From NCBI RefSeq assembly GCF_001678475.1, contig NZ_JTJR01000015.1:1-64000 (forward strand): a stretch of 64,000 nucleotides of DNA. Direction: 5' to 3'. The position numbers and the translations under genes were made by a program. The notes beneath the pieces are model-generated. The model saw only the letters and a list, made by a program, of their open reading frames with translations. It was not told the origin of the DNA and did not search any database. Positions 5,372 to 28,781 of this stretch are shown piece by piece. How positions within the stretch are numbered: position 1 is the stretch's first letter; every line of letters starts with the position of its first letter. The stretch is from Gallibacterium genomosp. 3 (GTDB lineage Bacteria; Pseudomonadota; Gammaproteobacteria; Enterobacterales; Pasteurellaceae).

Positions 5372-6973
5372 TTATTTACAGAATTTATTAAGGTCACCGA
5401 GCATATTAATATCATCTGGGTTAGTCAAGTGCGGAACTTTCCAGCCATTTTCGTCATAATCAGCCAAACATTGATCCACAAGATCAAAGCATTTTTGTAA
5501 AATGCCGTTTGCGGTTGATTGACCAAGCACTTGTAAACGGACCTCTTCTTGGCTACCAGCATAGTTAATTTCATAAAGCTCATGACGACCACCAAACTCA
5601 GTACCAATGGCATCCCATAATAATTTTAGAATCTTAATCCGTTCGCGATATTCAATATTATTTGAACCACGAACATATTTTTCTAAGTATTTATCAATAT
5701 CTGGGTTATTAAAATCAAGTTTATGCGATGGTAAATAAATCAATCCACTGGTTACAGTCTGCTCTGCAATTTTCTTCACCGCAAGATAAGCCATTGGTGC
5801 CATTACTCGATAAGTTTGAATTGCAGGTAAGCTTGGCATACGACAACCGCTTTCCCAAGAGAACGAGTTTCCATACATTGCATCAGTTAATGACCAGAAT
5901 AGGTTACGCCATGCTAATACTTCACCCATTTGTGCTGCTACACCACGGAACTCAATAACACCTGTACATTGTAGTGCTTTGTGAATGATACCTGATAAGA
6001 AATCTAATTTAACTGCTAAACGTGTACATGCTTGCATTGGGAATAATGTTGCAAACCCAGCATATTGAGCCCATTTACGGCAACGTTCAAAATCTTTATA
6101 AATTAAGATATTTTCTTTTGGAATAAATACCTTATCCAAAACTAGAATTGCATCATTTTCATCAAAACGGCTAGAAAGAGGGAAATCATATGGTGAACCA
6201 GTTGCACCTGCGGCTAATTCATAAGAATGGCGACAAATTAATTTCACTCCTTTTGCATCCATTGGTGCAATAAACATCATCGCAAATTTTTCATCTGAAC
6301 CGATAATTTGTGCAGAACCAAAACCGATAAAGTTATAGTGGGTTAATGCAGAGTTTGTAGCCACTACTTTCGCACCACTGACAATAATACCGTTTTCTAA
6401 CTCTTCTTCGACTTTAACATAGACATCTTTTACTTCATCAATTGGTTTATTACGATCAATAGGTGGATTAACAATCGCGTGGTTAAAATAGAGGCAAGAT
6501 TCTTGAATACGTTTATACCATTCACGAGCATTATCCGCATAAGGACCATAGAACTCTGCATTAGCACCTAATGATGTACCAAACGCAGCTTTATAATCAG
6601 GTGTTCTACCCATCCAACCATAACTTAGACGAGACCAGGCTGCAATCGCATCACGTTGCTCACGTAAATCTTCAGCCGTTCTTGCGTAACGGAAGAATTT
6701 ATGGGTATAACCGCCATTCCCAGTATCTGTTTCCCAGCATAATTCATCTTTGCTTTTTGGATCATGTAATGCATCATAAAGTCTTGCGATTGATGCTGCT
6801 GCATTTCTAAATGCAGGGTGAGTCGTTACATCTTTAACACGTTCACCATAAATATAAATTTCACGACCGTCACGAAGACTTTCTAAATATTCTTCGCCGG
6901 TAAATGGACGATTTTTTTCTTTACGGCAATCATCAGGTCTTTTATGTTGATAGTAACGATTTTGATCGGTCAT
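5372..6973 (-). CDS. hpaB: 4-hydroxyphenylacetate 3-monooxygenase, oxygenase component
   Basis: 533 aa (E. coli HpaB is 520). FADH2-dependent hydroxylase that converts 4-hydroxyphenylacetate to 3,4-dihydroxyphenylacetate, the first step of the pathway. Very close to the enterobacterial family throughout: FTGEEYLESLRDGREIYIYG near the start, SYGWMGRTPDYKAAF (about 115-130), FNHAIVNPPIDR, GAKVVATNSALTHYNFIGFG, GATGSPYDFPLSSRFDENDA and EFGGRHELYEINYAGS near the C-terminus. I chose the ATG at 6973 because AAGGAG lies 8 nt upstream; an in-frame GTG at 6982 directly abuts that site and is unlikely. Divergent from hpaA; the intergenic region carries a CRP-like site and repeats. The reading frame is intact. 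Confidence 0.94.
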   Translation of the reverse strand: MTDQNRYYQHKRPDDCRKEKNRPFTGEEYLESLRDGREIYIYGERVKDVTTHPAFRNAAASIARLYDALHDPKSKDELCWETDTGNGGYTHKFFRYARTAEDLREQRDAIAAWSRLSYGWMGRTPDYKAAFGTSLGANAEFYGPYADNAREWYKRIQESCLYFNHAIVNPPIDRNKPIDEVKDVYVKVEEELENGIIVSGAKVVATNSALTHYNFIGFGSAQIIGSDEKFAMMFIAPMDAKGVKLICRHSYELAAGATGSPYDFPLSSRFDENDAILVLDKVFIPKENILIYKDFERCRKWAQYAGFATLFPMQACTRLAVKLDFLSGIIHKALQCTGVIEFRGVAAQMGEVLAWRNLFWSLTDAMYGNSFSWESGCRMPSLPAIQTYRVMAPMAYLAVKKIAEQTVTSGLIYLPSHKLDFNNPDIDKYLEKYVRGSNNIEYRERIKILKLLWDAIGTEFGGRHELYEINYAGSQEEVRLQVLGQSTANGILQKCFDLVDQCLADYDENGWKVPHLTNPDDINMLGDLNKFCK

Positions 6974-7058
6974 GGCAGTCACTCCTTAATAAAGTTATTT
7001 GGAATTTTTACCCTTATTGGGTAGGTATTAACATTTATAGAGGAGAATTTGTGTTATT

Positions 7059-9454: not shown

Positions 9455-9475
9455 GCCCCATCTTTTGCGTGGGGC
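9455..9475 (+). other. Intercistronic hairpin after the TRAP binding-protein gene
   Basis: Stem gcccca (9455-9460) / tggggc (9470-9475), loop of 9 nt, without a T run. Hairpins at this place often stabilise the abundant binding-protein transcript relative to the membrane subunits; that role is inferred. Confidence 0.4.
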
Positions 9476-9486
9476 AGGAGGATGCA

Positions 9487-10014
9487 ATGAGTGAAACATT
9501 GCCAGTCAACGAAGTACCTACTTTAGTTGATACCCCTGTGGGACGAGTTCTATATCAAATCTCTAAACAATTTGCCTTGTTAGGTGGATTTATTTTTCTT
9601 GTGCTAATTGTTATTTCACTCTACTCATTAATCGGGCGCAAGTTAGGCTTTGGCGGTGTAGTTGGTGATATTGAGCTGGTTCAAGCAGGCGGGGCTGTTG
9701 CTGGTTCATTATTCTTACCGTTCTGTACCATTATGTATGAACACTTAAAGGTTGATTTCTTCACTATGAAATTGCCTCTCAGTATTCAAAACAAACTTGA
9801 TGCACTTGCTGATTTAGCATTATGTGGTGTTGCTTTATTGTTGGTATATCGAATGGCAATCCAAAGTGTAGCGTTATATGACTTTGCCGAAGTCACAGCA
9901 TTAATGTCTATCCCTGTATGGATCCCCAATATGCTGATGATCCCTGGATTTTGTTTAATGGCAATTTGCTCACTATATTACTGCATAGTTCACGCTACAC
10001 AAAAAGGAGAATAA
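9487..10014 (+). CDS. TRAP transporter small permease, DctQ family
   Basis: 175 aa with four predicted membrane helices (about 26-47, 65-85, 105-125, 137-165), the DctQ layout. The ATG at 9487 is chosen because AGGAGG lies 5-10 nt upstream; an upstream in-frame GTG at 9469 precedes that site. The stop is 3 bp before the dctM start, so the two are translationally linked. In TRAP systems DctQ pairs with DctM in the inner membrane. The frame is intact, but its partner is broken. Confidence 0.85.
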   Translation: MSETLPVNEVPTLVDTPVGRVLYQISKQFALLGGFIFLVLIVISLYSLIGRKLGFGGVVGDIELVQAGGAVAGSLFLPFCTIMYEHLKVDFFTMKLPLSIQNKLDALADLALCGVALLLVYRMAIQSVALYDFAEVTALMSIPVWIPNMLMIPGFCLMAICSLYYCIVHATQKGE

Positions 10015-10017
10015 CCT

Positions 10018-11338
10018 ATGATGAGTGGCGTAGAAATGGGAATTGTAGGATTCCTTATCTTATTAACCTTACTATTAATTCGTATCCATATTGGCATTGC
10101 AATGTTCCTAGCCGCCGCAGGTCTTTATCTCTATTTAGGCCAAGGTGATGTGAGTATGTTAATGTTCACGTTAAAAGGTTTAGTGTATGCCCGCTTATCT
10201 AACTACGATCTTGCTGTGATTCCATTTTTCATTTTAATGGGACAATTTGCATTAAATGGCGGTATGTCAAAAGCTTTATTTAGAGCAGCAAGCAGCTTTA
10301 TTGGACATTGGCGAGGTGGTCTAGCTATGTCAGCGATTGGTAGTTGTGCTGCTTTTGGTGCCATTTGTGGTTCATCTTTGCTACCGCAGCAACTATGAGA
10401 CAAGTCGCCTTACCTGAATTAAAGAAAAGAAAATATTCTGGTGCATTATCTACTGCAACATTAGCTGCTGGTAGAACATTGGGTATCTTAATTCCCCCGT
10501 CAGTTCCATTAATTATTTATGCTGTATTAACACAAGAATCAATTGGTAAATTATTCGTTGCCACAATTATACCTGGCTTATTAGCTATGCTCGGTTATGT
10601 TTTAGTGGTAAAAATCCTCGTTACCATTAAGGCCCAACATCAGAAAAAATGCCTTTTAAAGAGGCTCTAAAAAGCCAATTTTAGGTCATTCCAATTTTTA
10701 TTGTGCTCTTAATTGTAATTATCAGTATTTATGCTGGTTGGGCAAATCCAACAGAATCTGCCTCTATTGGTGCAGCTGCTTGTGGTGTGGTTGCTTGGCT
10801 AAATGGTGGTTTAACTTGGCGAGGCGTACTCGATAGTATTTTAGGGACAGCAACCACTACCGCAATGATTTTTATGGTACTGATTGGTGCTGACTTATTA
10901 AACTCAGGTCTAGCTATTACACAAATGCCTAATCAATTAGCAGCTTGGATAGTAGAACAACAATTTCCACCATTATTAGTTCTATTCATAATCTTACTCA
11001 TTTATCTCTTTTTAGGCTGTGTTATGGATTCTCTTGCCATGATCCTCCTCACTATTCCTATCTTTTATCCAATTATTATGGGATTAGATTTTTGGGGATT
11101 AGCCGATCAAGATAAATCAATTTGGTTCGGAATTTTGGCCTTAATGGTTGTAGAAATTGGTTTGGTTACATCACCGGCTGGGATGAATCTCTTTATTATC
11201 AATAAAATCGATGGTGAAACCTCTTTAGGACAAACATCAAAGTGGATCGTGGCATTTCTCTTCTCTGATTTTGCACGTATCGCATTAGTCACTTTTGTAC
11301 CAATTTTAGCGTACGGACTTGTTCACCTATTTGAATAG
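10018..11338 (+). pseudogene. TRAP transporter large permease DctM, two frameshifts and one nonsense codon
   Basis: DctM-type large permease, the ion-coupled channel of the TRAP system. It is broken three times. First, near 10376-10380 the frame shifts after FGAICGSS; the expected continuation ATAATMRQVALPEL is in the next frame. Second, at the A run 10652-10657 one base is missing (six A where seven restore the frame into MPFKEALKSQF). Third, TAG at 10682-10684 replaces the residue between QF and VIPIF, probably Trp. Adding back two bases gives 440 codons plus stop, the usual DctM size. Typical motifs survive: GILIPPSVPLIIYAV and the C-terminal GLVTSPAGMNLFI. It cannot be made full length. 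Confidence 0.9.
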
Positions 11339-11349
11339 AAGGTATTTTT

Positions 11350-12036
11350 ATGACTCAAACATCATTAGCCAAACAAGTGGTTGAAACCTGCACTACCGCC
11401 GCACCATCCGTGTTTGCGATTGCATTAAATAGCCGTGAACAATTAGCACGACTAGATGAAAAATTTAACCAAGCACCTTATCAAACACCGCCAAAAACAC
11501 CGGTAATCTTCTTATAACCACCTAGTACATTAAACATCAATGGTGGTGCAGTAGTATTGCCAGAAGGGCAAGCTGAATTACGCATTGAACCTCATCTCGG
11601 TGTGGTATTTGCCGATACAACCTCGAGAATCAATCAAGCAGAAGCGTTCAACCATATTCGTGGATTTGTGCCTGTTAATCTCTTTTCACTCCCTAGTGAT
11701 GATTACTATCGCCCTGATATTACAGGTCGTTGTCGTGATGGGTTCTGTTCCATTGGTCAAGAGATCAAACAAGCTGCCGTTACTGATCCAGATAACATCA
11801 GCGTTAGTATCAGTGTAAATGGTCAATTTAAGAAAAAAAGTGAGGGAAATATTATGTTACGCAGCATCTCAGAATTAATCGCTTTCCTTAGCCAATTTAT
11901 GACTTTTAGATGCGGTGATATTTTATTAGTTGGTACTGATGATTGTCCAATTATTATGACTAAAAATAGCTGTGTAGAAACTACTTTTGAACAGCTTGGT
12001 ACTGTGACTAACACCGTTATCGAGTCAGCTAAATAA
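11350..12036 (+). pseudogene. hpaG1: HpaG N-terminal-type isomerase/decarboxylase subunit, in-frame TAA
   Basis: Homologue of the N-terminal half of E. coli HpaG (5-oxopent-3-ene-1,2,5-tricarboxylate decarboxylase / 2-hydroxyhepta-2,4-diene-1,7-dioate isomerase). FAIALNSREQLARLDEKF at the start and CRDGFCSIGQEI in the middle match the family. Codon 56 is TAA (11515-11517). In E. coli the aligned motif is WFIKPRNT, here IFL-stop-PPST, so a Lys codon AAA to TAA change would explain it. The frame is otherwise open for 228 codons. Here the enzyme is encoded by two adjacent genes rather than one fused gene. A late TTG restart at 11557 would make only the C-terminal fragment. Confidence 0.88.
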
Positions 12037-12046
12037 GGAGAACACT

Positions 12047-12801
12047 ATGACGAAATATGCTCGTGTTTTATATCGTAATCAAGTCCATGTAGTCACCGTA
12101 CTTGATGACAATACATTGCTATTGGCCAATCAACAAACTATTCCTGCTGCCGCAGTGCAATAGCTGCCTCCATCAACAGGAACAATGTATGCACTTGGTT
12201 TAAATTATGCAGATCACGCTTCTGAATTGGCATTCAAAGCACCAACAACACCATTAGTATTTATCAAAGCACCCAATACTTATACTGGCCACAAACAAGT
12301 AACTTGCGCCCAGATAATGTTGAATATATGCATTATGAATGTGAATTAGTCGCTGTTATTGGAAAAGTTGCTAAAGATATTAAAAGAGAACAAGCAATGG
12401 CATACATTGCTGGATATACCCTTTGTAACGATTACGCCATTCGTGATTATCTAGAAAATTATTACCATCCTAATCTTAGAGTCAAAAATCGTGATGCAAC
12501 AACCCCTCTCGGCCCATGGATTGTGGATCGAGATGATATTGCCGATCCAATGAATTTAACCTTAAAAACGTGGATTAATGGTGAGTTAAAACAACAAGGC
12601 ACCACCAAAGATATGATTTTTGATATTCCATTTTTAGTTAAGTACCTCTCGCATAGAGTGGCATTGCAACCCGGTGACATGATTGCGACAGGCACCCCGA
12701 AAGGGTTAGCTGATGTGAAACCAGGTGATGTTGTTGATGTTGAAATCGAACAGGTTGGCAAGCTAACAAATTATCTTATAAGTGAACATGCTTTATTTTA
12801 A
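12047..12801 (+). pseudogene. hpaG2: HpaG C-terminal-type isomerase/decarboxylase subunit, nonsense codon and frameshift
   Basis: Homologue of the C-terminal half of HpaG, an FAH-fold enzyme. ATG 12047 has AAGGAG upstream. TAG at 12161-12163 (codon 39) interrupts just before LPPSTGTMYALGLNYADHAS; a Trp codon would fit there. A second lesion near 12298-12304 shifts the frame after TGHKQV; RPDNVEYMHYECELVAVIGK resumes one frame over. One missing base restores 251 codons. The downstream part keeps family motifs: the metal-binding Glu residues in HYECELV, YTLCNDYAIRDYLE and GDMIATGTPKGL. The protein cannot be made whole. Confidence 0.9.
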
Positions 12802-22566: not shown

Positions 22567-23553
22567 ATGAAAATTGCTGTTTATAGTACCAAAAGTTATG
22601 ACAGAAAATATCTTGAACTTGTGAATGTCAAATATGGTTTTGAATTAGAGTTCTTTGACTTTATGTTAAGTAAGCGAACTGCCAAAATGGCAGAAGACTG
22701 CCAAGCTGTCTGTATTTTTGTTAATGACATTGCCGATCGAGAAGTATTAACCCAACTTTCCTAATTAGGTATCCAAACTGTTGAATTACGCTGCGCTGGT
22801 TTTAATAACGTTGATCTTAACGCTACCAAAGAATTAGGTATTAATGTTGTCAGAGTTCCAGCATACTCACCTGAAGCGGTTGCTGAACATACCGTTGGTT
22901 TAATGCTAACCTTAAATCGCCGTATTCACTGGGCATATCAACATACTCGGGAGGCAAATTTTTCATTAGAAGGATTGATTGGTTTTAATATGCACGGACG
23001 TACGGTAGGTGTTATCGGTACAGGGAAAATCGATCTTGCTGTGATGCGGATTTTAAAAGGCTTTGGTATGTATATACTTTGTTATGATCCATTTAAAAAT
23101 CCAGCTGCACAAGAACTTGGAGCAACTTATGTTTCTTTAGATGAACTCTATGCTCATTCTCACGTAATTACCTTACACTGCCCTGCCACACCAGAAAATT
23201 ATCACTTGTTAAACCCTGATGCATTTAACAAGATGAAAGATGGTGTGATGATTATTAATACTAGTCGCGGTACATTGATTGATACTAAAGCTGCTATTGA
23301 AGCCCTAAAATCACGTAAAATTGGTTCATTAGGGATGGATGTTTATGAAAATGAACGCGATCTCTTCTTTGAAGATAAGTCAAATGAAGTGATTCTTGAT
23401 GATGTATTCCGCCGTCTATCTTCTTGTCATAATGTCTTACTGACAAGACATCAGGCATTTTTAACTGAAGAAGCATTGACCAGTATTTCTGAAGTAACGC
23501 TCAACAACATTGCTCAAATTGAACAAAAATTACCCTGTGCGAATTCACTTTAG
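22567..23553 (+). pseudogene. ldhA: D-lactate dehydrogenase (fermentative), in-frame TAA and damaged NAD motif
   Basis: Close homologue of E. coli LdhA (329 aa; here 328 codons). TAA at 22762-22764 is codon 66, between LTQLS and LGIQTVELRCAGFNNVD; GAA to TAA would explain it. The frame is the same before and after. Two missense changes also hit conserved sites: the NAD-binding GTGKIG reads GTGKID (GAT at 23032-23034), and the segment before the catalytic His, TGHQAF, reads TRHQAF (near 23448). Other active-site residues remain (NTSRG, YENERDLFFEDKSN, catalytic His). The gene has a good ribosome site (AAAGGAG) but cannot give an active enzyme. It sits between aroQ (divergent) and trxA. Confidence 0.92.
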
Positions 23554-24686: not shown

Positions 24687-25994
24687 ATGTCTGAACAATC
24701 GATCTTAACTACATCTAAAGGGGCTAGAGTTGCCGTTGTTGATGGACTGCGAACTCCTTTTATTAAGCAAAATACCTTATTTAAAGAGGCAAAAGCGAAA
24801 GATCTTGGGGCTATGGTGGCGAACGAACTTTTAAGCCGTTTAGCTATTCCCAAACACAAAATTGAACAAGTGGTATTTGGGCAAGTCATTCAAGATCCCG
24901 ATATTCCAAATATCTCTCGTGAAATCTCCTTACTGCTAAATATGCCTCATGCGCAATCTTATACTGTTAGTAGTTCTTGTCCAACTGGATTACAAGTTTT
25001 AGTCAATTTAAGTAATAGTATCTTAATGGAAAATGCACATTATGCGTTAGCTGGCGGTGCAGACTCATTATCTAATGCACCAATTCGTTTAAATTCTCAT
25101 TTAATTCAGTTAATCCGAGAAATTCTTGCCGCTAAGAGCTATGAAGAAAAATATCACCTTTTCCGCCAAATTAGTTGGCAAGATCTCAAATTACAAGCCG
25201 TTAATCTTAAAGATCCATTAACTCAATTATCCCTCTCTGATGTTTCAGAACAGATGGCGCAAGATTTTCATTTAAATCGCCGAGAATTAGATGAATACGC
25301 TGCTCGTTCACATCGTTTAGCGTATCAAGCTTGGCAAAGCGGAGAGTTACGTCAACAAGTTATGGTTTCTTTTCCACCACCTTATGAAAAATTCGTGGTT
25401 TCAGATAACCAAATTGAACGTAATCCAAAACCAGAATTATTTGAAAAATTTAAACCTTTTAATGGTAAAAACTATGGTACTGCTACCGATTGGAACACAT
25501 CTCACTCTTGTGATGGTGCAGCTGCGGTCCTATTGATGAATGAGCATACTGCTAAAGCAGAAGGATTAAATATTCTTGGTTATATTCGCCACTATACAAT
25601 GACGGCGAATGATATCTGGAAAAATATGTTTGTTGGCGTTACTCATTCAGTAGCCAAAGTATTAGAAAACGCCAATATGCAGTTAAGTGATTTAGATCTT
25701 ATTGATTTCCACGAAACGTCATCCTCTCAGATCCTAGCAAATTTAAAATTACTCGAATCAGATACGTTTGCACGCCAACATTTAAATCGTTCAACCGCTA
25801 TCGGTTCTGTCGATATGACTAAATTTAATATTCTCGGTGGTTCAATCGCTTATGGTAATCCACGTGCCGTCAGCAGCTTAAGATTAATCATCCAATCTTT
25901 ATATGCATTAAAACAACGTGGTGGTGGTACGTCTTTAATCGCTTCTGGTGGTTTAGGTGGTATTGGTGGCGCTATGATTTTGGAGAGTGAATAA
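24687..25994 (+). CDS. FadI-like thiolase homologue lacking part of the catalytic set
   Basis: 435 aa, the length of E. coli FadI (436), with the thiolase fold along its whole length. The nucleophile is kept (SSSCPTG, Cys about residue 95). Other catalytic motifs are not. The family HEAFA reads HETSS, the GHP motif holding the catalytic His reads GNPRA (Asn in place of His, codon AAT), and the C-terminal CxG-type Cys region reads ASGGLGGIG, with no Cys. Ordinary 3-ketoacyl-CoA thiolysis would therefore be expected to fail. The frame is clean, with a GAGG site, and its stop overlaps the fadJ-like start by one base. It may be a repurposed or acyl-binding scaffold protein, or an early pseudogene; I cannot tell. 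Confidence 0.8.
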   Translation: MSEQSILTTSKGARVAVVDGLRTPFIKQNTLFKEAKAKDLGAMVANELLSRLAIPKHKIEQVVFGQVIQDPDIPNISREISLLLNMPHAQSYTVSSSCPTGLQVLVNLSNSILMENAHYALAGGADSLSNAPIRLNSHLIQLIREILAAKSYEEKYHLFRQISWQDLKLQAVNLKDPLTQLSLSDVSEQMAQDFHLNRRELDEYAARSHRLAYQAWQSGELRQQVMVSFPPPYEKFVVSDNQIERNPKPELFEKFKPFNGKNYGTATDWNTSHSCDGAAAVLLMNEHTAKAEGLNILGYIRHYTMTANDIWKNMFVGVTHSVAKVLENANMQLSDLDLIDFHETSSSQILANLKLLESDTFARQHLNRSTAIGSVDMTKFNILGGSIAYGNPRAVSSLRLIIQSLYALKQRGGGTSLIASGGLGGIGGAMILESE

Positions 25995-28135
25995 TGAATA
26001 CGTTACAAGAAAATCAATTATCTCCATTTACATTAACTATTGATGAACAACAAATTGCTTGTGTGTTGATTAATGTCCAAGATAAAAAACGCAATACATT
26101 ATCAGCTAATTTCGTTGCTCAACTTGATCAGTTATTAACTTCATTACCTGCTAGTACGAAAGGATTAATTATCCAATCTGCTAAAGAGAATAATTTTATT
26201 CAAGGTTTTGATCTTAATAGCTTAGTTGATAAATCCGATTTGCAATTAGAAGCATTTATTAATCAAGTTCATCAATTAATTGCTAAAATTCAGAACTTAC
26301 CTTTTCCAACTATTGCCGCAATTCATGGAGCTTGTTATGGCATTGGTTTAGAAATTGCATTGGCTTGCCGTTATCGTATTGCATCAGATGATATAAAAAC
26401 ACAATTTGCTATGCCACAAGTACGTTCAGGTGTTGTTCCTTTTGCCAATGGGATCTCACATCTTGCTGAACGTGTTGGTTTAAAAGCAGCCCTCTCATTC
26501 TTACTTTCCGGAGATAAATTTGATGTTCATACGATGCAATCATTAAACTGCATTGATGAAGTTGTGCCAAAAAGTTTACTCTTACCAACAGCATATGAAT
26601 ATTTTTCTAAGCAAACTTTTGTGGCAAAAACCCTTTCTCAAACTGCATTAGTATGGCAAAAAATCCAAGGACACTTGCACAATAATCCGCTTACTCGCCA
26701 TATTCTGTTTGATGCAGCTGAAAATAAAGAATGGTTAGGTCCTGTCGATAATTATCCTGCAATGGCAAAAATTATTGATATTTTAAAACAACCTACATAT
26801 CAACAACGTTTAGAGGTAGAAAAAAACGCCTTTATTGCCTTATTTAATAGCGAAAATTCTCGTGTATTGCGCAACCTTGAACAAACTAAACATGCAATGC
26901 GTATGCAATATGAAACTCGAGGCAATGTTCGTGATGTCAATAAACTCGCAATCATCGGTGGTGGTTTTATGGGAGCAGGAATTGCGTATATTACTGTACG
27001 TAATGCTAAAATTCCTGTTCGTATTAAGGATATTCACCCGAATGGTATCACCAAAGCTTTACATATGACTCACTCTTTACTGCAACGAGAAGTCAGTAAA
27101 AAATTAATTTCTTCTGGTGAAATGCAACAGTTAATGTATTTAATTTCTGGTGGCGAACGTTTTCTCGCTACACCTGATGCAGATTTTGTCATTGAAGCTG
27201 TGTATGAAGAGTTAGAGGTCAAACAACGTGTATTACGGGAAAGCGAAGTGTTTTATGGTGAAAATACTATTTTTGCAAGTAATACCTCAACACTTTCTAT
27301 TGCTGATATTGCAAGTGAAGCAAATCATCCAGAAAACGTGATTGGTTTCCACTATTTCTCTCCAATTGCACAACGCAAAATGCTAGAGATTATTCCTCAT
27401 GCCAAGACATCAGAAAAAACCATTGCAACCGCTATTCACTTTGCAATTCAACAAGGCAAAATTCCATTGCTGGTTGCTGATAAACCAGGATTTTTCGTTA
27501 ACCGCATTTTAATTCCATATTTGCTAGAAGCTTTCTACTGCTTATGTGATGGTGAAGCGGTTGATTTTGTTGATCGTGCTTTACAAGAGTTCGGTTTTGA
27601 AGTCGGTCCATTAGCTATGTTAGATGACTTTGGCTTGGATTTACTCGCCAAAATGTTACCAAACTTAGAACAACATTATGGTAAGCCTTTTGCGGTTCCT
27701 GCTAAACTTGGTAATTTATTACGTGATGATCGTAAAGGACGTAAGAATAGACGTGGCTTCTATCTCTATAATTTACAAACTGATGAACGCACCATGGTAG
27801 ATAAAAGTATCTATTACGTGATGGAAACCATCTCTGAAAATAACCTTGAGTCAGAACAAGTAGTGCGTCGCTGTATCTTAATGATGTTGAATGAAGCTGC
27901 TCGTTGTTTAGAGGAAGGCGTTATTAGTAGTCCAGAAGAAGGCAATATGGCTTCTGTATTAGGTGTGTTCTTCCCTGATTTCCGTGGTGGTATTTATGCT
28001 TATATGCAACATATTGGTGCAACCTCCATTATGAAAGCGTTAAATGAACACGTCAACTTGTATGGCAAACGTTTCCAACCTTGTGAATGGTTGTTGAATC
28101 AAGCAGCACAAGAACAACAAACCTTAACACATTAA
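25994..28135 (+). CDS. FadJ-like multifunctional beta-oxidation subunit with altered hydratase site
   Basis: 713 aa (E. coli FadJ is 714). N-terminal enoyl-CoA hydratase domain (about 1-190), then a 3-hydroxyacyl-CoA dehydrogenase domain with NAD motif GGGFMGAGIAYIT (about 317-329), catalytic His in GFHYFSP (about 450), Glu in KMLEIIPH, and C-terminal repeats (DDRKGRKNRRGFYLY). In the hydratase one catalytic Glu is present (GLEIALA) but the second is Gln: MPQVRSGVVP where E. coli has LPEVQLGLLP. The oxyanion segment is FIQGFDLN. So the dehydrogenase looks active and the hydratase probably not. The gene is coupled to the thiolase-like gene (TAATG overlap) and followed after 10 bp by a methyltransferase. 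Confidence 0.82.
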   Translation: MNTLQENQLSPFTLTIDEQQIACVLINVQDKKRNTLSANFVAQLDQLLTSLPASTKGLIIQSAKENNFIQGFDLNSLVDKSDLQLEAFINQVHQLIAKIQNLPFPTIAAIHGACYGIGLEIALACRYRIASDDIKTQFAMPQVRSGVVPFANGISHLAERVGLKAALSFLLSGDKFDVHTMQSLNCIDEVVPKSLLLPTAYEYFSKQTFVAKTLSQTALVWQKIQGHLHNNPLTRHILFDAAENKEWLGPVDNYPAMAKIIDILKQPTYQQRLEVEKNAFIALFNSENSRVLRNLEQTKHAMRMQYETRGNVRDVNKLAIIGGGFMGAGIAYITVRNAKIPVRIKDIHPNGITKALHMTHSLLQREVSKKLISSGEMQQLMYLISGGERFLATPDADFVIEAVYEELEVKQRVLRESEVFYGENTIFASNTSTLSIADIASEANHPENVIGFHYFSPIAQRKMLEIIPHAKTSEKTIATAIHFAIQQGKIPLLVADKPGFFVNRILIPYLLEAFYCLCDGEAVDFVDRALQEFGFEVGPLAMLDDFGLDLLAKMLPNLEQHYGKPFAVPAKLGNLLRDDRKGRKNRRGFYLYNLQTDERTMVDKSIYYVMETISENNLESEQVVRRCILMMLNEAARCLEEGVISSPEEGNMASVLGVFFPDFRGGIYAYMQHIGATSIMKALNEHVNLYGKRFQPCEWLLNQAAQEQQTLTH

Positions 28136-28145
28136 GGAGCATAAA

Positions 28146-28781
28146 ATGGCATCTGCAGCGCGTTGGAATCATTACAGTAAAATCTATAATTTTTTCCTTC
28201 AAGCTGCAGATAATATGCGCCAGAGCCAATTTGCCTTACTAGACCAACAGCAAATATGGCATCATTCTCCGCTGAATATCTATATTGCAGGAGCGGGTAC
28301 AGGATTAGATGTACCCTATCTTGCAACACGCCTTAAGCCAAACAGTCAGCTCACATTAATCGACTTTTCTGCTGATATGCTAGCAAAAGCAGATAAGCTC
28401 ATTCAGCAGCAACAATACCCTTGGCAAATTACGACTAAGGTTGGACGAGCAGAACAAAGTGAACTAGCGGATCAAAGTTGTGATCTTGTGTTGCTACATT
28501 TAGTTCTCGCTGTAACATCAACACCACAAGAGCTACTTACTGAAATTGTGCGAGTTCTGAAGCCAAATGGCATAATTTCTTTGTGGGATAAATTTTTACC
28601 TGATGGGCAACAAGCTTCGTTTTGTAGGAAAAGTATTGATAAGATTACTACGGCACTAGGTACAACAATCAATCTACGTTTACAAGATCTGATTGCACCA
28701 TTGCCATTGACAATAGAACAACATCAATTTTGCCATTGGGGCTTAATGCAACAAGTAGTATTACGCAAAACTACCACGTAA
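28146..28781 (+). CDS. Class I SAM-dependent methyltransferase, substrate unknown
   Basis: 211 aa. The SAM-binding motif I is IAGAGTGLDVPYL (about 42-54), followed by the acidic residue of motif II in LTLIDFSADML (about 69-79) and a motif IV-like LVLLHLVLAV (about 113-122), then VLKPNGIISLWDK. The layout is like UbiE or phospholipid N-methyltransferases, without the extra features that would name a substrate. AAGGAG site, 10 bp after the fadJ-like gene, so probably one operon with that pair. It is convergent with cpdA, 20 bp away. Confidence 0.75.
   Translation: MASAARWNHYSKIYNFFLQAADNMRQSQFALLDQQQIWHHSPLNIYIAGAGTGLDVPYLATRLKPNSQLTLIDFSADMLAKADKLIQQQQYPWQITTKVGRAEQSELADQSCDLVLLHLVLAVTSTPQELLTEIVRVLKPNGIISLWDKFLPDGQQASFCRKSIDKITTALGTTINLRLQDLIAPLPLTIEQHQFCHWGLMQQVVLRKTTT

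Follow-up and report, generated by a model that had tools for sequence, protein, structure and literature searches.

The adjacent fadI- and fadJ-like genes of the Gallibacterium genome studied here (family Pasteurellaceae; 2.45 Mb) most probably encode a repurposed, Pasteurellaceae-specific FadI–FadJ complex that no longer serves β-oxidation, a reading to which we assign a probability of about 90 %. Two of the three catalytic centres of the complex are altered by substitutions that belong to a single clade and are held under selection; Cys98 and His342-Glu343 of the FadI-like subunit stayed, as did the complete dehydrogenase site of its partner in most lineages. The variant is a real, selected rewiring of a known complex across the family and is new as a variant; our literature search found no paper describing it or the fadI/fadJ genes of Pasteurellaceae. 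Positions refer to the window, i.e. the whole stretch of 64 000 nt that was analysed, and FadI residues are numbered as in canonical FadI of the same order, where Cys98, His342, His391 and Cys421 are invariant. For residue comparisons, 54 aligned variant rows (some genomes appearing twice) were set against 67 canonical FadI sequences from other families. The FadI-like gene and its diagnostic sites are as follows.

24687..25994, + strand: FadI-like thiolase-fold protein of 435 aa (ORF, family matches, homologues, purifying selection)
24978..24980, + strand: Cys98 at the nucleophile position (SSSC98PTG), retained in 54/54 variants
25710..25715, + strand: His342-Glu343 at the HEAFA position, retained in 54/54 variants
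25719..25721, + strand: Ser345 for the Phe of HEAFA (H342ETSSSQ versus HEAFAAQ), 54/54 variants versus Phe in 67/67 canonical
25857..25859, + strand: Asn391 for the His of GHP (YGN391PR versus YGHPF); Asn in 44 and Ser in 10 of 54 variants, His in 67/67 canonical FadI
25863..25865, + strand: Arg393 for Phe, 54/54 variants versus Phe in 67/67 canonical
25947..25949, + strand: Gly421 for the second catalytic Cys (ASG421GLGG versus TAC421AAGG); Ser in 45, Gly in 7 and Cys in 2 of 54 variants

By its Thiolase_N and Thiolase_C domains (Pfam) and its predicted fold, the product of the ORF at 24687–25994 is a member of the thiolase superfamily. The predicted model (pLDDT 80.9) retrieved 8bnr_A in a structure search (E 4.6e-45, TM 0.85), and a second structure comparison also aligned it with 8bnr (Z 51.4, rmsd 5.0 over 428 residues). 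Scores for the FadI equivalog models fell below their cut-offs (462.4 of 560 bits for NF006516 and 432.0 of 711.6 bits for TIGR02446), and of the FadI catalytic set Cys98 is present, with His391 replaced by Asn and Cys421 by Gly. The thiolase catalytic set consists of Cys89, Asn316, His348 and the base Cys378, and across the superfamily the Cys is accompanied either by two His or by Asn and His (PMC3406046); His342, at the HEAFA position, corresponds to the Asn316 site of the Z. ramigera enzyme (fingerprint: PMC3406046). The initial annotation had read the nucleophile as kept, GHP as GNP, the C-terminal motif as a Cys-free ASGGLGG and HEAFA as HETSS, and sequence and alignment bear out each of these. 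It had also described a full-length frame coupled to the next gene; the frame is indeed open over all 435 aa, and its stop codon overlaps the FadJ-like start in the sequence TAATG.

The same gene was found in 27/49 Pasteurellaceae genomes of a first, smaller sample, and a wider genome search recovered the variant form from 49/140 genomes and 24/43 genera of the family. All aligned Pasteurellaceae sequences bear the variant substitutions, as opposed to none of the 67 canonical FadI proteins, so that the relatives whose alignment had been proposed as a check share these substitutions rather than carrying GHP and Cys. Ser101Gly, like the changes at 345 and 393, occurs in 54/54 variants, with the original residue in 67/67 canonical sequences, and A423L is a further change. 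As the motif changes are shared throughout the Pasteurellaceae variant clade and occur in none of the canonical sequences, they are not due to chance. The variants form one clade in our tree (support 100). Among 394 genomes sampled across the order, none outside Pasteurellaceae reached the variant score range (the 12 matching at a strict score limit were all Pasteurellaceae), and 53 aligned loci from outside the family were canonical. Within the variant, a single Volucribacter sequence, present as two rows, retains Cys421, and GNP has become GSP in a Testudinibacter/Chelonobacter/Spirabiliibacterium clade. Loci with Ser391 are L038, L054, L056, L082, L092-L094, L098, L099 and L129 (Testudinibacter, Chelonobacter, Pasteurella testudinis and Spirabiliibacterium).

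The initial annotation had also offered a very early pseudogene as an explanation, with a dN/dS near 1 as the sign of decay. Between Gallibacterium species, where the FadI-like protein is 94 % identical to that of G. salpingitidis and 89 % to that of G. anatis, we obtained dN/dS values of 0.015–0.041 for the FadI-like gene and 0.033–0.053 for the FadJ-like gene (Nei–Gojobori), resembling intact neighbours such as smpB and cpdA; the closest pair (dN/dS 0.015, dS 0.45) gives the safest figure, as synonymous sites are near saturation in more distant pairs. Visibly broken genes near the locus and one family copy with an internal stop codon (in genome G080) would fit decay; against it stand these ratios, identical substitutions across 24 genera and frames free of internal stops in 48/49 carrier genomes. 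Since dN/dS is this low and the substitutions are fixed across so many genera, we reject plain decay, the probability of which is negligible. The internal stop is a TGA (G080:C1:542913-544214), perhaps in a lineage that is losing the gene. Elsewhere in the window, a 4-hydroxyphenylacetate (hpa) catabolic region (5372–6982 and 9469–12801) looks decayed, its HpaG-like and TRAP permease DctM-like genes each being split and its HpaB-like oxygenase intact. A D-lactate dehydrogenase-like frame at 22903–23553 looks start-truncated (216 aa versus 328 aa in G. salpingitidis, locus L031).

The partner subunit adjoins the FadI-like gene at every variant locus, and its relevant features in the window are the following.

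25994..28135, + strand: FadJ-like protein of 713 aa with enoyl-CoA hydratase and 3-hydroxyacyl-CoA dehydrogenase domains (ORF, family matches, alignment)
26351..26353, + strand: Glu120, the first hydratase Glu, retained in 54/54 variants
26417..26419, + strand: Gln142 for the second hydratase Glu, 54/54 variants versus Glu in 67/67 canonical
26441..26443, + strand: Phe150 for Gly in the hydratase pocket motif, 54/54 variants versus Gly in 67/67 canonical
27287..27502, + strand: dehydrogenase catalytic Ser432, His453, Glu465 and Asn503, all four in the window protein

This protein likewise scores below the equivalog cut-offs of its family (710.1 of 869 bits for NF008363 and 668.5 of 968.5 bits for TIGR02440). 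It lacks the two-Glu hydratase signature of FadJ and possesses the Ser-His-Glu-Asn set of the dehydrogenase together with the NAD glycines G322/G324/G327; these glycines and His453-Glu465 are retained in all FadJ-like variants. In the crotonase family, an enzyme without the second Glu is expected to be inactive as a hydratase. Additional changes are Leu145Ser, in 54/54 variants, and replacement of Ala72 by Phe, Tyr or Leu. The bulky Phe or Tyr at 72, together with Phe150, suggests a filled hydratase pocket, which, along with the disappearance of key residues from two catalytic centres and the invariable proximity of the two genes, is in keeping with a pseudoenzyme scaffold, wherein a dead FadI-like subunit and hydratase domain would be kept to assemble or position the FadJ-like dehydrogenase or to bind acyl-CoA. 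A pure scaffold would, however, have no need of Cys98 and His342-Glu343, and the surroundings of Cys98 have been remodelled in a fixed manner (Ser101Gly), as for an active site under selection; we view this explanation as rather unlikely. It has a further point in its favour in the Testudinibacter/Spirabiliibacterium clade, where dehydrogenase Ser432 is also gone, and in the Ser391 clade the pair may be a scaffold. The complex has changed further in this clade: position 432 is Leu or Asn, and in Spirabiliibacterium Thr replaces Asn503.

With regard to genomic context, a search with the acyl-CoA dehydrogenase N-terminal domain drew no match in the Gallibacterium genome. Such a match was likewise missing from 17 of the 22 carriers scanned, the remaining five having only a low-scoring frame of ∼360 aa, unlike the FadE-type frames of roughly 750–840 aa found in other families of the order. 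A PF00108 search revealed no other thiolase or canonical FadI elsewhere in the genome, the other weak matches being two KAS III-type proteins and one 410-aa protein; FabH and acyl-CoA synthetase-type (AMP-binding) genes are present. As the genome is without an acyl-CoA dehydrogenase and any other thiolase, the pair does not appear to serve classical β-oxidation. FadIJ of Escherichia coli is a second β-oxidation complex (PMC9329746), and with this trifunctional enzyme (PDB 8bnr; TIGR02446/NF006516, TIGR02440/NF008363) the variant has in common its fold, two-gene order, coupling, ∼42 % FadI identity and a similarly kept dehydrogenase site. Unlike it, the variant is without the GHP His, the C-terminal Cys and the hydratase Glu, has sub-equivalog scores and resides in a genome without acyl-CoA dehydrogenase.

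These features also bear on whether the FadI-like protein is still a thiolase, albeit slower or of altered specificity. The H348N and N316H changes in Z. ramigera thiolase reportedly affect thiolysis less than condensation. As both mutants exist as folded proteins (PDB 2WL5, 2WKU), the His change alone would leave residual thiolysis possible, and a Ser at 421 might act weakly. Set against this, the His and Cys changed together with F345S, F393R and A423L; Gallibacterium has Gly or Ser at 421, and the window protein has Gly; and both the key residue of the substrate-making hydratase and the acyl-CoA dehydrogenase are missing. We therefore hold continued thiolase activity to be decidedly improbable.

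Genes further downstream differ by lineage, so that no pathway can be read from the neighbours. In the window the third gene of the cluster is the following.

28146..28781, + strand: class I SAM methyltransferase-like gene (family matches; cluster only in Gallibacterium, Testudinibacter and Spirabiliibacterium)

Of 140 genomes, 11 have this gene, all of them variant carriers, although these co-occurrences are not independent events as the genomes are related. In about 13 other genera its place is taken by a DUF945-like gene (named by eye from the sequence), and an NAD-dependent epimerase-like gene lies downstream in some lineages.

Within the repurposed complex, a specific chemistry can be put forward at somewhat less than even odds: an acyl-Cys enzyme working in biosynthesis, whose Cys-His-Asn set resembles that of KAS III and which is coupled to the dehydrogenase. 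The FadI-like subunit would still load an acyl group onto Cys98, which with His342 and Asn391 would form a set like that of KAS III (FabH). The Cys base required for thiolysis and for non-decarboxylative condensation is missing; hence condensation or transfer of the acyl group would run towards synthesis, with a malonyl thioester as a plausible acceptor. The resulting 3-keto compound would then be reduced by the FadJ-like dehydrogenase to give a 3-hydroxyacyl thioester, at which point the reaction would end because the hydratase site is predicted to be dead. The fuller proposal, that a thiolase evolved a KAS III-like site inside a β-oxidation complex and became a biosynthetic maker of 3-hydroxyacyl thioesters, fixed once in Pasteurellaceae, is more tentative and somewhat doubtful. 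The retained non-thiolytic role suggested by the initial annotation finds support in general terms, with its chemistry standing as a proposal. The altered catalytic Glu of the FadJ partner and the missing first β-oxidation enzyme went unnoticed there.

In E. coli FabH the triad is Cys112, His244 and Asn274, and decarboxylative condensing enzymes have no C-terminal Cys base, which fits its loss here. Profile comparison with FabH placed C98 on the FabH Cys in a local alignment spanning the N-terminal half only, and when the C-terminal halves were aligned globally by profile, H342 and N391 fell on the His and Asn of FabH, respectively, at a probability of ∼5 % and with a weak score, so that this register is supportive rather than proof. 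Unlike KAS III, the variant has a thiolase loop domain and FadI ancestry. The main evidence against the proposal comes from the clade with Ser391 (10 of 54 rows) and an altered dehydrogenase Ser432, in which a strict Cys-His-Asn triad does not hold. The FabH model TIGR00747 matched genes on contigs C24 and C17 of the genome and not the FadI-like gene; FabH was absent among the matches listed in the structure searches, which is uninformative either way. At the variant loci we saw no linked gene for a malonyl- or ACP-specific partner. The Gallibacterium genome itself encodes a second KAS III-like protein (G000:C17:17497-18450), whose score falls well short of the FabH cut-off.

Retention of the nucleophile with loss of Cys421, the base for C–C chemistry, would equally suit an acyltransferase or thioesterase in which Cys98 passes a thioester acyl group to water or a non-carbon acceptor, a C–C bond being neither made nor broken. 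Precedent exists in thiolase-fold acyltransferases such as PhlC, which has a Cys-His site and itself acylates carbon (PMC6392133). The retained 3-hydroxyacyl-CoA dehydrogenase partner, however, points to 3-keto/3-hydroxy substrates, and we regard this activity as quite improbable. Two other cases in the thiolase fold offer comparisons. TLP1 of Mycobacterium smegmatis (PMC3406046) resembles the variant in its altered but conserved fingerprints; unlike the variant, it is without the nucleophilic Cys, and the variant has a FadJ partner. The steroid aldolases Ltp2/Sal (PMC12329534) similarly have catalytic residues repurposed to another reaction, but differ in their SCP2-thiolase lineage, hydratase/DUF35 partner and a YDHF or YDCY motif that is absent from the variant.

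Such genes in Pasteurellaceae will probably be taken for genes of fatty-acid degradation; a genome-wide association study of Haemophilus parasuis discussed fadA and a SNP of a ‘fatty acid oxidation complex’ with regard to virulence, although that locus may differ from the variant (PMC4532294). For the locus described here the degradation reading is probably wrong, because carriers are mostly without the first β-oxidation enzyme and the complex is without key residues for two steps. If the synthetic reading is true, the Pasteurellaceae would provide a natural example in which a few fixed substitutions turned a degradative thiolase into a condensing enzyme.
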